Assembly: GCA_031274295.1 (NCBI GenBank)
Contig: JAISQI010000071.1
Span: forward strand, 1-47,651
Direction of reading: 5' to 3'
Source: Holosporaceae bacterium
GTDB lineage: Bacteria > Pseudomonadota > Alphaproteobacteria > UBA3830
DNA length: 47,651 nt
Below, piece after piece: positions 4,814 through 33,179 of this stretch (position 1 is the stretch's first letter; each line of letters begins with the position of its first letter). The position numbers were made by a program, and so were the translations under genes. The notes beneath the pieces were generated by a model. It saw nothing but the letters and a program-made list of their open reading frames with translations. It was not told where the DNA came from and did not search any database.

Positions 4814-6040
4814 TCAACTCCACAGTGCGGCGATCGGTACTGCCCAGAGTCCATCCCCAAAAGAAACGGTGTCTTCACCCGAATATAAAATTATAGAAAT
4901 TACGTTTTGATTTTTTGCGATATTATTTTTGAACCACCGAATATGTTTGAAATCATTTTTAGAAACGACTGACCCTGATTTTACTTCAATACAAGCTATA
5001 ATTCCGTTCGAACTCTCTATAATGAAGTCTATTTCGCGATTTTCCCTATCTCTGTAGTGATAAATATGGCAGCCGCAGATATCGGATTGTATGGACAATT
5101 CTTTGAAGACTAATGTTTCGACTATCTTTCCTGACCTTTCGGGATTTAGGCGTACTTCTTCGAAATTCCAATTTAAAACGCTAGCCATAATTCCCGTATC
5201 GGTAACGAAGATTTTATCTTTGCGTCCAACTCCAGAATAATCAGTCTTGCTCCATGGACTGACGCGTTCAAATAAATATAGAGCTTCCAGCACGCCGACA
5301 TAACTGTCGAAAGTAGTTCGCGCGATGGCCAATTTGCTACACATACCAGGAATATCCAAGAATTTACTTGACCATGCCGTCAGGATTTTTACCTGTTCTT
5401 GAAGAGCCGTGTTGCGTCTTATGTTTGCTATGTTTTTTAAATCTCTTGTAAGCAGAGTATCCACGTAATCAAGATGCCAATCTTTTCTGTCGACGTCGGA
5501 GAAATTTACAACTTCCGGATATCCTCCACGAAAAGCTATCTTTAAAATTTCAGTTTTGTTGTAGCCTTTTATTTGGGCGGGAAATTCATTGTTAAACAGC
5601 ATTTGTATAAATTTCGGCTCGTTCTCTAATATTTCTCCATTTGCAAGAGTTCTCAGACGAATGTTTTTTATTCGGCCAGCTAAACTTTCAGAAACTTGAG
5701 GCAAGTTTTTGATGTCAGCCGATCCGGTCAGTAAAAATTGTCCCGTTCGACTATCGAGATCAACAGTCTGCTTGATGGCCGATAATAATTGTGGAGCTTT
5801 TTGGACTTCATCGATTATCATTGTGCCGTGTGAATGCTTGATGAATTCTTTCGGATCGTCGATTGCCGCCTTCAAAAGCGTAACGTCGTCTAAAGATCTA
5901 AAAATAGAGTCTTTAAGCTCGATTTGCTTAGACAACGTAGTCTTCCCGCACTGTCTTTCCCCGGAAATCACAACAATTCTTCTCTTATCAAGAGCTCGTT
6001 TTAAAGACTCAGACATCCACCTCTTATATTGCTTACTCAT
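4814..6040 (-). CDS. AAA family ATPase with DUF4143 domain
   Basis: A 408-residue protein of the widespread AAA_14/DUF4143 ATPase family, whose cellular role is unsettled. The P-loop GERQCGKT is at residues 27-34, Walker B MIIDEVQ at about 74-80 and the sensor-like LLTGSAD near 104. The C-terminal DUF4143 part carries EIDFIIE followed by IACIEVKSGS, resembling a PD-(D/E)XK nuclease core. The start is set at the ATG at 6040, with GGAT nine bases upstream; two earlier codons (GTG CTG) are alternatives. The gene stops 20 bases from the tRNA-Val 3' end and is preceded by a 23-bp tandem repeat array, so it looks like an accessory insertion at a tRNA. Such genes are often multicopy in intracellular alphaproteobacteria. 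Confidence 0.85.
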   Translation of the reverse strand: MSKQYKRWMSESLKRALDKRRIVVISGERQCGKTTLSKQIELKDSIFRSLDDVTLLKAAIDDPKEFIKHSHGTMIIDEVQKAPQLLSAIKQTVDLDSRTGQFLLTGSADIKNLPQVSESLAGRIKNIRLRTLANGEILENEPKFIQMLFNNEFPAQIKGYNKTEILKIAFRGGYPEVVNFSDVDRKDWHLDYVDTLLTRDLKNIANIRRNTALQEQVKILTAWSSKFLDIPGMCSKLAIARTTFDSYVGVLEALYLFERVSPWSKTDYSGVGRKDKIFVTDTGIMASVLNWNFEEVRLNPERSGKIVETLVFKELSIQSDICGCHIYHYRDRENREIDFIIESSNGIIACIEVKSGSVVSKNDFKHIRWFKNNIAKNQNVISIILYSGEDTVSFGDGLWAVPIAALWS

Positions 6041-6069
6041 CAGCACGATCCAAATTGTTTTAGGGTAAT

Positions 6070-6098
6070 AGTATAATCAAATATCCGCAAAAGTGCAA
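6070..6098 (-). promoter_or_regulatory. Putative promoter of the AAA/DUF4143 gene
   Basis: On the minus strand, -35-like TTGCAC (plus positions 6093-6098, inside repeat unit 1) and -10-like TATACT (6070-6075) are separated by 17 bases. They lie about 30 bases upstream of the proposed ATG. The motif match is good, but no expression evidence is available. Confidence 0.55.
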
Positions 6099-6268
6099 TT
6101 AGAATCGTCACAAAAGTATAAATAGAACTGCCACAAAAATATAAATAGAATTGCTGCAAAAGTGCAATTAGAATTGTCACAAAAGTATAAATAGAACTAC
6201 CGCAAAAGTATAATTAGAATTGCCGCAAAAGTATAAATAGAACTGCCACAAAAGTGCAATTAGAAAAT
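6085..6268. repeat. Tandem array of eight 23-bp repeats
   Basis: Eight consecutive 23-bp units run without spacers. Each has the frame C-[CT]-[AG]-C-AAAA followed by either a GTGCAATTAGAA or a GTATAAATAGAA type core. Units 1, 4 and 8 are the GTGCAA type; 2, 3, 5, 6 and 7 are GTATAA-like (unit 3 ATATAA, unit 6 GTATAATTAGAA). Read on the minus strand, the two cores become TTGCAC and TATACT. A TTGCAC unit followed by the next TATACT-type unit therefore gives a promoter-like pair with an 18-base spacer. The unit length is not a multiple of three and stops occur in it, so it is not coding. It is not CRISPR because there are no unique spacers. Confidence 0.93.
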
Positions 6269-6374
6269 CCGTATTCTTGCTTTTATGAGACTCCATCAAT
6301 GAATAAGCTCTGTATTTAGAGCAGTGGATAGATTTTCACTTCGCGAGACGTCCGTTTCGCCGTCTTTAGGTTAT
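6269..6374. other. Gap between the repeat array and the HIT gene
   Basis: No gene is seen here. The minus strand holds a small hairpin (GCTCT/AGAGC around six bases) and a second weak one (AGACG/CGTCT) downstream of the HIT stop. These could help terminate the minus-strand pilus/HIT transcript, but neither has a clear T-run. Confidence 0.3.
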
Positions 6375-6713
6375 TTATAATCGCTCGCCACCGAGAATAT
6401 GCACATGAAAATGCTCAATTTCCTGTCCGGAATCATGTCCGGTATTACTCAGTATGCGGTATCCGCTCTCGGCAATATTCAATATGTGTGAAACTTTGGA
6501 AACTGTACCAAAAAAATCTTTAACTTCCTGAGCGGATGCATTGGATATAAAATCGTTAAAATTTGAGTACAATCCCTTTGTAATTACCAAAGCATGAACC
6601 TTTTTCAGCGGACATATATCATAAAAAGATAAAGCTACGTCATTTTCATATATAATTTTTGCTGGAATTTCAGATTTTAAAATTTTATAAAATACATTGT
6701 TTTTATTATACAT
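6375..6713 (-). CDS. HIT family nucleotide-binding protein (HinT-like)
   Basis: A 112-residue histidine-triad protein. The signature HFHVHILGG gives the triad at H101, H103 and H105, and the N-terminal FYKILKSEIPAKIIYEND is typical of bacterial HinT purine nucleoside phosphoramidases. Length fits the family. The ATG at 6713 is preceded by an AGGTGG ribosome binding site. It is last in a minus-strand run after two prepilins, with which it has no obvious functional link. Confidence 0.92.
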   Translation of the reverse strand: MYNKNNVFYKILKSEIPAKIIYENDVALSFYDICPLKKVHALVITKGLYSNFNDFISNASAQEVKDFFGTVSKVSHILNIAESGYRILSNTGHDSGQEIEHFHVHILGGERL

Positions 6714-6752: not shown

Positions 6753-7466
6753 CTAAATTAAATTAAATCGACCGTCCGGAGTAGAATTCTCTGCGCTACG
6801 CCTTTGTTCTTTTTTGCAGGGACAATTTTTCAGATATTGCATCAGAAGTCTATCTCTGGAAATCCAACTGGTGTATTTGGAAACAATAACGTCGATCTTC
6901 TCAGATATTCTCGGATAGTTATCGTTTGTATCTATTACAAATGCAATGACATCCGGTAGTAAATTCGCGACTTTATCAATCGCGATAACTGGATTAATAA
7001 CTCCGCGGCAAAAATAATTATTCTCTATTCCCGTTTCGTATATGCTTACACAATTAGAAGTCAGAACGGGTTCCACAGTGTAAACCAATGGCCTTCCCTG
7101 GCCGTCAAGGGCAATTTTCGCTGGTATTCCGAGCGTATGAAATGGAACCCTCCCGACAAAATTTGATAGAACCATCTCCGTCTCTAAATTTTCACGTCCA
7201 TCACCGTTCAATGACGGCCTAGGCAATCTGCTGTGATTTGCTATAAAAGAAGCCAAAGCAATGGTTACCGTTTCGATATTGTTTTTTGTGATTTGCACGC
7301 GCATGGCTCTGCTGGCTGTAATTGTTTTAGTAATAAAAAACCCGGAAATTAATCCAATAATTGATATTGCTATTGCAATTTCCAGCAGAATTGACCCATG
7401 TCTACCAGATTTTGAATAGAAGTACGCAATCTTTGTTTTTATTTTTGATATTGTATCGTGAACCAA
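6753..7466 (-). CDS. Type IV prepilin-like protein (second of the cassette)
   Basis: A 237-residue protein with a class III (prepilin) signal. A 24-residue basic leader ends in G24, followed by SILLE with E at mature position +5 and a hydrophobic helix to about residue 45. The body is not recognisable at family level and has several Cys residues (near 130, 140 and 205) that could form disulfides. The TTG start has GGGAG about nine bases upstream and overlaps the preceding prepilin gene by 65 bases. The predicted role is a minor pseudopilin of a type IV pilus or type II secretion-like machine, processed by PilD-type peptidase, which is not in this window. Confidence 0.7.
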   Translation of the reverse strand: MVHDTISKIKTKIAYFYSKSGRHGSILLEIAIAISIIGLISGFFITKTITASRAMRVQITKNNIETVTIALASFIANHSRLPRPSLNGDGRENLETEMVLSNFVGRVPFHTLGIPAKIALDGQGRPLVYTVEPVLTSNCVSIYETGIENNYFCRGVINPVIAIDKVANLLPDVIAFVIDTNDNYPRISEKIDVIVSKYTSWISRDRLLMQYLKNCPCKKEQRRSAENSTPDGRFNLI

Positions 7467-8040
7467 TAAAGCATTCTCCCGATGCGTCTGAAGATTTTAT
7501 TGCTTGAATTTCTCCGGTTGAGCAATTTCCCGTGTCGTTATTTTTATCTATATAATAGGCCTCTTCGGGCGACAAAACCCCCTTGAAATTTTGATTATCA
7601 CTGGTATCTTTACACAAAACGATCCAAACTCCCGGATGATCTTGAATTTGAGAAGATACGGTATAATATCCGCCGACCTTGCTGCGGGGATATCCGTTTA
7701 TCAGCTCCAAGCTAATTAAATCTGACGCCACCAAATGCTGCCAAAACCGTTTTGCGTCTTCGATGGAGGATATTACGCCGTCTCCTCTACCATTCCGCGA
7801 AGAACTACCAATCATCTCTTCCGCGTTGTTAAAATCCCCCGGCAATACCCCGTATTTATCCGTAAAACTTTGAACCGCTATCCTAAATGTATTTACTTGA
7901 TCAACGACCGATCTCAGTCTAGCAGCATTTATTAATTCTTTACCTTTCAATGCAAAACCAGCGATCAAACTGATTACGACAATCGCAATGGCCACCTCTA
8001 TGAGAGAAAATCCTCTATTTCTATTGGAAAACTTCATCAT
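7402..8040 (-). CDS. Type IV prepilin-like protein (first of the cassette)
   Basis: A 212-residue protein starting with a classical short prepilin leader: G10 followed by FSLIEVAIAI, with E at +5 and a hydrophobic N-terminal helix. The globular part contains a YGVLPGDFNNA stretch like that seen in type II/IV pseudopilin-family proteins, and paired cysteines near its C-terminus. Its ATG overlaps the stop of the secretin gene (ATGA), so the secretin and this prepilin are translationally coupled. It is probably a (pseudo)pilin subunit; which pilus system it serves cannot be decided from this segment. Confidence 0.8.
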   Translation of the reverse strand: MMKFSNRNRGFSLIEVAIAIVVISLIAGFALKGKELINAARLRSVVDQVNTFRIAVQSFTDKYGVLPGDFNNAEEMIGSSSRNGRGDGVISSIEDAKRFWQHLVASDLISLELINGYPRSKVGGYYTVSSQIQDHPGVWIVLCKDTSDNQNFKGVLSPEEAYYIDKNNDTGNCSTGEIQAIKSSDASGECFIGSRYNIKNKNKDCVLLFKIW

Positions 8041-9663
8041 TTTTTAAAGTCCAGCGGTCTTGGATCATGGGCGAAAACGTTGTACATTTTTTTGTCAGCT
8101 TCATGATGAGCTTTGCTTTTTTTTCGCAAAATAGTAGCCTTTAGAAAAATAACCAATTCCGTAATTCTTGTCGATTTTGCGTTACTTCCCGCGATAAAAT
8201 CAGCCTCTTTAAATCCCGGCAATCCATCTCTGTCATTACTGGATGATTCCTGCATTAATCCGCCCATAACTACTATTTGTCCCGAATTAAGCTTCAATAC
8301 GGAATCCAACTCCCTTACGTCGACAATTGGAATTTCATGATATTGTACGTCTTTTTCAGCTGCGTTGCCCAACGCATTACTCACGGAAGACGTAGTGTGG
8401 TAAAAAAATGGCACCTTCTTATACTCTGCAATTCTGGAAATTGTAGGGCGCAGACTCAGCAGGATTGTATTATTCTTTTTATCAACGGACGGCAAAACAG
8501 ATATCATTAGCCCGACAGGAATCGTGCGAATCGTTGTAGAAAGAAAATCAGTGCTGCGATTATCCGATACTGTCGCATATTGTCTCTGCAACTCAGGAAT
8601 ATAAATTACTTCATTTTGAGCAACCTTTAGTATGGCCGGCTGATTATTCAAAACTGTAATTCTTGGGCTCGATAGAGTTTTAACCGCTCCAAACCTCTCG
8701 ATTAATCCCGCAACTATGCCCAAGCCAGCTCTATCTATACCAAAAGAAAGTAATCCATCCTTGTCGCCGGGAAAATACCTTTTCGAGTTTTACGCCTCTA
8801 CGAGGTAAAATGCTCCAGTTAATGCCGCTTTTATATTCGTCTTTCAAATTAACTTCCAGTATCTTGGCTTCGATTAAAACCTGAGATTCGGTAGTGTCCT
8901 TTAGCAATCGCAGATATTTCTGAACTTCGTTATGTTTGCTCTGGGTTGTGTAAACCGTTATTAACCCACCCTGTCTATGCAAAGAAAGGTATGATCCCTC
9001 ATTTTCTCCGATGATGATTTTCAGAGAGGCTTCGAGCTCCTGCCAAAAATCATTTTTTGTTACTCCAGCGATTAAGCTACTAGATCCATTATTGTTTGAC
9101 TGTCCAAGCGTCGACGTTTCCCCTTTGGTACCTACGGCCTGATTCATAAATATATCTGTCGAAACGGATACGGTACTTTGAGTATCCCGCTGAATATTCA
9201 AAAATTGTACATTGTATACCTTAAGTGTCGGCGTATCTATTTCAATTTTGACCGAGTTTCCGTCAATTGAATACTTAAGGTCTGCGCCGCTGCAGATGTC
9301 CTTCAGTATGTCGAGAAACGGGCGATTATTAGCCGAAAAAGAGATTTCTCCCTCAACATCGTGAACGATGAAAATGTTAATTCCAGCCAAATTGGCCATT
9401 TGCGTTAAAACTTCTCGCATTTTCATATTTTTTGTGACGGAGATCGAAATCGGTTTATAAAAATTTTCATTTATTATAGGTTCTCTGTCGATTTCATCTT
9501 CCAGGAATTCTTCCGTGTCCAAATCGGAAATGAAATCGTCCACCGGAGAAGATATCGTATTAAAAATTTTAGGATCTAAGTTCTTCTGCTGAGGAACTAT
9601 TGCATCATCAACTGAAACACAGCCTAGCAGGAGCAAAAACACTATCCATAAAAATCGATGCAC
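8037..9663 (-). pseudogene. Lipoprotein secretin (MshL/PilN/GspD type) with an apparent frameshift
   Basis: Two frames together make one secretin, the outer-membrane channel of type IV pilus/type II secretion machines. The 5' part (9663 to about 8731) has a GTG start, a lipoprotein signal with lipobox LLLGC (C15), an STN-like domain at about residues 70-150 and an SSLIAG loop followed by an N-domain. The 3' part (from about 8775 to 8037) has the secretin core with SSPRITVLNNQPAILKVA and VMGGLMQESSS. The frame changes at a TTTTCCC run (plus 8769-8775). Removing one T joins them smoothly as VFPGDKDGLLSFGIDRAGLG. It may be a real inactivating insertion, a programmed shift or a sequencing error. 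The neighbouring prepilins are intact and coupled to it. Confidence 0.85.
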
Positions 9664-32593: not shown

Positions 32594-33179
32594 TGTATTT
32601 GCCTTCTCCTCTTGAGCCCTTTGCGCCGATAAAAATTCTTTTTACAAGATCGTTTGAAAACTGATAGTCACAGACAACTGTTAAAACAAATGCTTTGCCG
32701 CTTAACGTTTGAAACTTAGTATCCGAATTATCTAGGGAAAAACTTGTCTCCGGAGTTTTATAACTGACCAGTTTGATGATATTGCCATTTTCACTCTGTA
32801 TTGTGTTTTCGCTTGAAGGCCAATAGATTTTATTATTATCGTTGGATTTTTCACTATCCGCGGTTGACAGATCTTTATTATCGTTAGAATCTTCACTATT
32901 CATGGTTAGCAGATCTTCATATACATAAAAATACCATGTGATTTTATTCTCTGAGATATATGGCGGCTTGTATTGGTTAACTATTTCGTCGAAATTATCG
33001 GTATTTCTGGAGGCCATAAATGCAAACGCCATTTCCGTAGCGATGGAATCGGCGGCTATTTGAGTATCATTTATCTTCATTATTTCTAATATAAAAAATA
33101 TAAGGTAACAAACTATGGGAAAAGTTAGCGCCGCTTCCACCGCCACGGAACCACGATATTTTCTCGTAAAAAGCTTCAT
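32559..33179 (-). CDS. TadE-like pilin-family membrane protein with internal duplication
   Basis: A 206-residue protein from the ATG at 33179. The N-terminus KYRGSVAVEAALTFPIVCYLIFFILEI is a TadE/TadG pattern: a class III cleavage site after G10 and E15 at position +5, followed by a hydrophobic helix. The middle contains a 14-residue repeat, EDSNDNKDLSTAD then EKSNDNNK, encoded by a tandem 42-bp duplication. The C-terminal half is not recognisable. TadE-type pseudopilins belong to Flp/Tad pili; no other tad genes are in this window. It converges on xerC with a 35-base overlap. Confidence 0.72.
   Translation of the reverse strand: MKLFTRKYRGSVAVEAALTFPIVCYLIFFILEIMKINDTQIAADSIATEMAFAFMASRNTDNFDEIVNQYKPPYISENKITWYFYVYEDLLTMNSEDSNDNKDLSTADSEKSNDNNKIYWPSSENTIQSENGNIIKLVSYKTPETSFSLDNSDTKFQTLSGKAFVLTVVCDYQFSNDLVKRIFIGAKGSRGEGKYIIHGRGVGVCS
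32833..32916. repeat. Tandem 42-bp intragenic duplication
   Basis: Two directly adjacent 42-bp copies (32833-32874 and 32875-32916), both beginning TTATTATCGTT and ending CAGATCT or GCAGATCT, with about eight differences. The length is a multiple of three, so the TadE-like reading frame stays open and a 14-residue acidic, Asn/Ser-rich segment is doubled. Confidence 0.88.

Follow-up and report, generated by a model that had tools for sequence, protein, structure and literature searches.

A 23-bp direct-repeat array carried with PDC-S01-type ATPase-nuclease genes across several phyla: a probable operator for the encoded protein

What keeps a series of short direct repeats in place immediately upstream of a single gene, and which protein recognizes them? 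This question is raised by positions 6070-6271 of the window (the whole stretch of DNA analysed, 47,651 nucleotides from a Holosporaceae bacterium), where a tandem array of eight 23-bp direct repeats and a degenerate ninth lies upstream of an AAA_14/DUF4143 gene. TRF called the array at 6070-6265 with a period of 23 and scores of 203-267, also returning periods of 46 and 69, and at lag 23 the array gave 51 matches in 60 positions, against a maximum of 34 in shuffled sequence. The preliminary description of eight spacerless 23-bp units with two core types upstream of the ATPase gene is confirmed. In the CAAAA register the units start at 6088, 6111, 6134, 6157, 6180, 6203, 6226, and 6249, the last being diverged in its 3' portion. 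These eight direct repeats (6088-6271, minus strand; TTCTAaTTATACTTTTGtGGCAa on the gene strand) are the proposed operator units, and their period is kept in homologs. The degenerate ninth unit, of 22 bp (6070-6091, minus strand; AGTATAATCAAATATCCGCAAA on the plus strand), is the source of a -10-like TATACT, and its phase matches a -10 peak in the homologs.

The units carry either a GTGCAA core (6093, 6162, and 6254) or a GTATAA/ATATAA core, agree pairwise at 15 to 23 of 23 bases, and are grouped by a 69-bp superperiod. They abut directly, with no CRISPR-type spacers. A CAATT-AG-AATTG dyad had been ascribed to some of the units; the exact dyad occurs in only one (6165-6176), and it was rejected as a repeated feature, its near matches in the window being not above chance. 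Another tandem repeat of the window, at 32833-32926 (42 bp, 2 copies, overlapping a 22-bp period), is unrelated to the array. No match to the unit was found elsewhere in the 1.05-Mb genome with up to 3 mismatches allowed; the repeat thus does not recur at many unrelated places, as the preliminary description had considered, and belongs to its own gene only. Searches with the array DNA in 11 congeners gave no match, and no copy was found in viral contigs.

The array sits between a HIT-family gene (6375-6713) and the AAA_14/DUF4143 gene, both read from the minus strand. Between the HIT gene and the array is a terminator-like hairpin with a T-rich tail (6307-6322, minus strand; 1 found, 0.1 expected), so that transcription of the DUF4143 gene probably starts from a separate promoter within or adjoining the repeats. 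Other neighbours are pilin-like genes, tRNA-Val, and a glycosyltransferase-like gene; the prepilin-like and secretin-like genes beside the HIT gene (6753-9663) perhaps belong to a type II secretion or type IV pilus system. No replication initiator gene, which would mark the iterons of a plasmid replicon, adjoins the array. In congeners no close full-length homolog of the gene was found, only proteins of 27-54% identity or fragments, and the glycosyltransferase-like and HIT genes lie there on separate contigs. A second, distant DUF4143 gene of the same genome (L204, G000:C69:539-1042) is without the N-terminal part, probably through decay or truncation at the contig edge.

The gene downstream of the array (4814-6046, minus strand, starting at GTG 6046 or ATG 6040) encodes a protein that joins an AAA_14 ATPase, a predicted winged helix, and a PD-(D/E)XK (DUF4143) domain. 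Its product matches the PADLOC PDC-S01 profile PDLC04790 over the full length (418 bits, residues 1-408), a match by which it is classed as a member of the very common single-gene phage-defence candidate PDC-S01; homologs bearing arrays match the same profile. PDC-S01, here a candidate, is reported to rank fourth in frequency among defence systems over all prokaryotes, with about 39,500 instances, and its antiviral validation is described as pending, as for most such candidates (PMC12988326). The invariant residues are G32, K33, and T34, D77 and E78, and E336, D338, E352, and K354; P-loop and Walker B residues are present, and the last four residues keep the PD-(D/E)XK motif intact.

An AlphaFold model of the protein (pLDDT 90.9, pTM 0.91) shows an AAA+ domain and, at about residues 205-290, a helix-turn-helix with a wing, whose predicted recognition helix comprises residues 238-253 (codons at 5282-5329, minus strand). 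Residues 1-290 were closest in structure comparison to 2QEN (Z 15.3, rmsd 4.9, 251 residues) and 2FNA (Z 14.3), followed by NLR, CED-4, and Avs5 proteins. The C-terminal domain modelled alone resembled McrC (Z 10.2, rmsd 2.6, 117 residues), and also Can2 and restriction endonucleases; Foldseek alone gave no match for this domain under E 0.001, and a sequence search returned no solved structure for the protein. No relatives were found in viral contigs, and phage records held eight homologs only, all of them distant. The closest homologs of the gene sit in other phyla, consistent with horizontal transfer.

The distribution of the array was followed by measuring the period on the 260 nt upstream of each gene start, with the best lag scored by p-value. 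Among homologs of at least 44% identity, whose hosts include Endomicrobia/Elusimicrobiota, Synergistota, Mucispirillum, Verrucomicrobia, and several Proteobacteria, the best lag was exactly 23 in 19 of 20 at p<=0.05 (18 at p<=0.01), the sole exception being an Asticcacaulis gene split into two ORFs. At 31-43% identity the best lag was 22 or 23 in 22 of 39 loci and 44 in two; below 31% (n=55) four loci had lags of 23-24 and eight had lags of 31-33, many of these distant paralogs having no detectable direct-repeat array. Control windows from the same loci gave 22 or 23 in 2 of 300 cases; the homolog loci behind these counts are partly non-independent, several coming from one genus or one order. 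In most of the closest-homolog loci TRF likewise detected a 23-bp array immediately before the gene, with unit sequences that differ between loci. Arrays of 22 bp occur with plasmid homologs in Agrobacterium, Rhizobium, Salipiger, and Sulfitobacter, and one of 23 bp with a Bacteroides ovatus plasmid homolog. The array is thus a feature carried with the PDC-S01-type gene family across several phyla, and since the unit sequence has diverged with the period kept, selection on the period or on the repeated site is the simplest reading.

Within the Rhizobiaceae, similarity between different plasmid contexts starts at the outer edge of the array, an edge that marks the boundary of a transferable module. 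Unit cores are better conserved there than linkers (0.926 versus 0.848, p=0.006), and the number of recognizable units looks constant among the copies compared, except for one copy replaced at its outer end.

Several variants of this arrangement were observed. Distant PDC-S01 paralogs (L155, L157, L168, L186, L187, L189, L190, L195, and L196) have upstream repeats of period 31-33; those of L157 are 32-bp units, each of them an inverted repeat in its own right, GACTATTT...AAATAGTC. In a plasmid homolog from Moraxella bovis (L110:1340-1489) one long near-perfect palindrome just upstream takes the place of a direct-repeat array. In a Synergistaceae genome (L060:2881-3306) a clean 23-bp array runs straight into what is left of the C-terminal part of the gene, which starts near codon 310, the intervening part being lost. 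Genomes of Leucothrix (G418) and Verrucomicrobia (G417) each yielded more than a dozen PDC-S01 paralog hits, mostly with no detectable arrays. After the array-bearing gene of Sulfitobacter sp. BSw21498 (L107:1507-4224) come a gene for a restriction endonuclease and one for QatA, a component of the Qat anti-phage system.

The protein that binds the repeats was sought by comparing unit similarity with the identity of protein segments in a Mantel analysis of 14 loci of the 23-bp clade. Unit similarity followed winged-helix identity (r=0.425), with a partial r of 0.47 given the rest of the protein (p=0.0002); for the rest of the protein given the winged helix the partial r was -0.25. The correlation peaked at residues 221-270 in a sliding window over the protein, and the recognition helix (238-253), the segment that tracked the array sequence best, was the strongest secondary-structure element (partial r=0.41, p=0.0005). 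Other 86-residue blocks gave values from -0.22 to 0.10. When each locus was left out in turn, r stayed at 0.34-0.55 with p<=0.018, and with a period-free similarity measure the correlation held for the 23-bp clade as well as for the combined set (0.32, p=0.0003). A second group, of Rhizobiales and Gammaproteobacteria, gave a strong correlation of 0.69, yet one inseparable from overall phylogeny and not domain-specific. This co-variation with the recognition helix makes the encoded protein the likely binder of the array, although it could also reflect a purpose of the array other than repression, such as activation or assembly.

The reading favoured here, at a probability of roughly two in three, is that the array serves the gene downstream as a multi-site operator, bound by the encoded protein and overlapping the promoter, so that the gene is autoregulated. 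The PDC-S01-type AAA/STAND-like ATPase-nuclease would bind each 22-23-bp unit through its winged helix, the bound protein would cover a promoter embedded in the array, and its own synthesis would be held low until the protein is released or consumed, for example on the arrival of phage or plasmid DNA. An operator array had been offered in the preliminary description as an alternative to stacked promoters, and it is this alternative that the family-wide occurrence of the array in several phyla and the co-variation with the winged helix support.

The same co-variation would also fit a tentative second explanation, in which the main job of the array lies in defence: the ATPase would assemble on it as an inactive store or sensor, and phage replication or transcription would displace it, releasing active nuclease. 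The nearest folds belong to AAA+ proteins of the STAND-like kind, NLRs and the Avs5 filament among them, which act by oligomerisation, and about one helical turn separates the periods of 22-24 bp from those of 31-33 bp, in keeping with proteins bound side by side along one face of the DNA. The array, with about two helical turns per unit and three in some branches, might then be a co-evolving private dock that moves with the gene as a working part of defence, sensor or store, and not only an operator; this too is regarded as possible rather than probable. Against it, simple autoregulation would itself give an array overlapping the promoter of its own gene, and a multimer on the DNA is hypothetical.

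For autoregulation through a multi-site operator, the position of the promoter matters. The -10-like TATACT lies at 6070-6075 (minus strand), by consensus only, 17 nt from the TTGCAC of the nearest unit, a -35-like hexamer at 6093-6098 (minus strand) that lies inside the gene-proximal full unit and agrees with TTGACA at 3 of 6 bases. This spacing of 17 was reproduced, as were the two spacings of 18 reported earlier, from TTGCAC (6254-6259) to TATACT (6230-6235) and from TTGCAC (6162-6167) to TATATT (6138-6143). A sigma-70 scan of 5990-6400 passed 0 sites, with 1.3 expected by chance. With 15 homologs anchored at their last intact unit, the -10 score was on average highest at a 17-bp spacer, one period, after TTnACA, a result that is supportive only, the anchors having been placed by eye. 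In the Rhizobiaceae a TTGACT is invariant in 10 of 10 sequences and is present in one unit only. A promoter at the gene-proximal end of the array is plausible, if weak by consensus in the window.

The preliminary description had gone further, proposing stacked sigma-70 promoters in which each pair of units supplies a -35 and a -10 element and the copy number sets expression. The period lends itself to this proposal, as 23 equals 6+17 and hexamers in the same phase thus acquire promoter spacing; a -10-like hexamer does lie one period past the last intact unit, and TATACT recurs in the window. The weak match of TTGCAC to the consensus and the empty sigma-70 scan nevertheless speak against it, as do the single Rhizobiaceae unit with TTGAC at -35, the conserved core bases that lie outside the hexamers, and the 31-33-bp periods of related arrays, which are unfit for promoter spacing. 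The apparently constant number of recognizable units in the Rhizobiaceae likewise argues against a promoter tuned by copy number. Of the earlier promoter reading, then, a gene-proximal promoter stands as plausible, whereas stacking found no support and is considered improbable. Since the 31-33-bp arrays of distant homologs are longer by about one helical turn, the period is better explained by protein binding than by promoter spacing, and a single promoter with many operator-like sites lying over it fits the evidence better than a promoter ladder.

A separate regulator, encoded elsewhere in each host, might bind the array instead, and defence genes can indeed have separate repressors, such as RptR (PMC12255303). 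It would have to account for an equal period in hosts of several phyla and for paralogs of one genome that differ in their units: in two genomes with two clade members each (for example G409: L037/L172) the units differ between the paralogs, and in a 5-Mb Leucothrix genome with more than 20 paralogous hits the exact core of one unit was found only in its own array. The homolog neighbourhoods compared shared no conserved gene that might act as a regulator. Some widely shared "neighbour" ORFs were rejected, being frames within the PDC-S01-type gene itself. With the co-variation tracking the protein's own recognition helix, a separate regulator seems unlikely indeed. A neutral minisatellite is hardly credible, for although slippage yields tandem repeats and might have left the 69-bp superperiod, one gene family keeps the exact period in its upstream DNA from phylum to phylum despite diverged sequence, the unit is absent elsewhere in the genome, and the window units, 65-96% alike with only one identical pair, indicate that the array is old.

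The proposed operators, paired with their winged-helix sequences, form a natural library useful for orthogonal regulators. The conserved cis element also offers a concrete handle on PDC-S01, with a predicted DNA target and a predicted recognition helix. In the open-access literature searched, no description was found of a 22-23-bp array tied to a PDC-S01 effector gene, and the available portions of the literature on PDC-S01, DUF4143, and COG1373 contained no mention of a regulatory array or repeats. No more than a lead comes from Thermus thermophilus, where an AAA_14/DUF4143 gene changed 6.6-fold in cells carrying a plasmid (PMC4406477); it hints at a response of such genes to foreign DNA, but the Thermus homolog analysed has no array.

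Among known systems, the gene is a full-length member of PDC-S01, with an ATPase fused to PD-(D/E)XK (PMC12988326). The archaeal AAA+ ATPases SSO1545 and PABY2304 (2FNA and 2QEN) likewise have an AAA+ domain followed by helical and winged-helix parts and align to model residues 1-290 with Z of 14-15, but share only 13-18% sequence identity with the protein. Control of defence promoters through direct repeats is already known from RptR of the RRDM phage-defence island, which represses its own promoter by binding direct repeats that overlap a phage-defence promoter (PMC12255303). The likeness lies in a short series of direct repeats over such a promoter and in a repressor that regulates itself, as proposed for the array; RptR, however, is a dedicated 9-kDa repressor acting on three 9-bp repeats around a TAGCTA palindrome (PMC12255303). 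The array described here has units of 22-23 bp, up to eight or more of them, and the effector is the one candidate for binding them. Plasmid iterons offer a classic case of autoregulation by tandem repeats; they are direct repeats of about 17-23 bp that stand beside the gene of a winged-helix binder and often over its promoter, leading to autorepression. The array resembles iterons in its tandem direct repeats beside the gene of a winged-helix protein; unlike them it is chromosomal, stands beside no replication initiator gene, belongs to a family with several paralogs per genome, and precedes the gene of an ATPase-nuclease.
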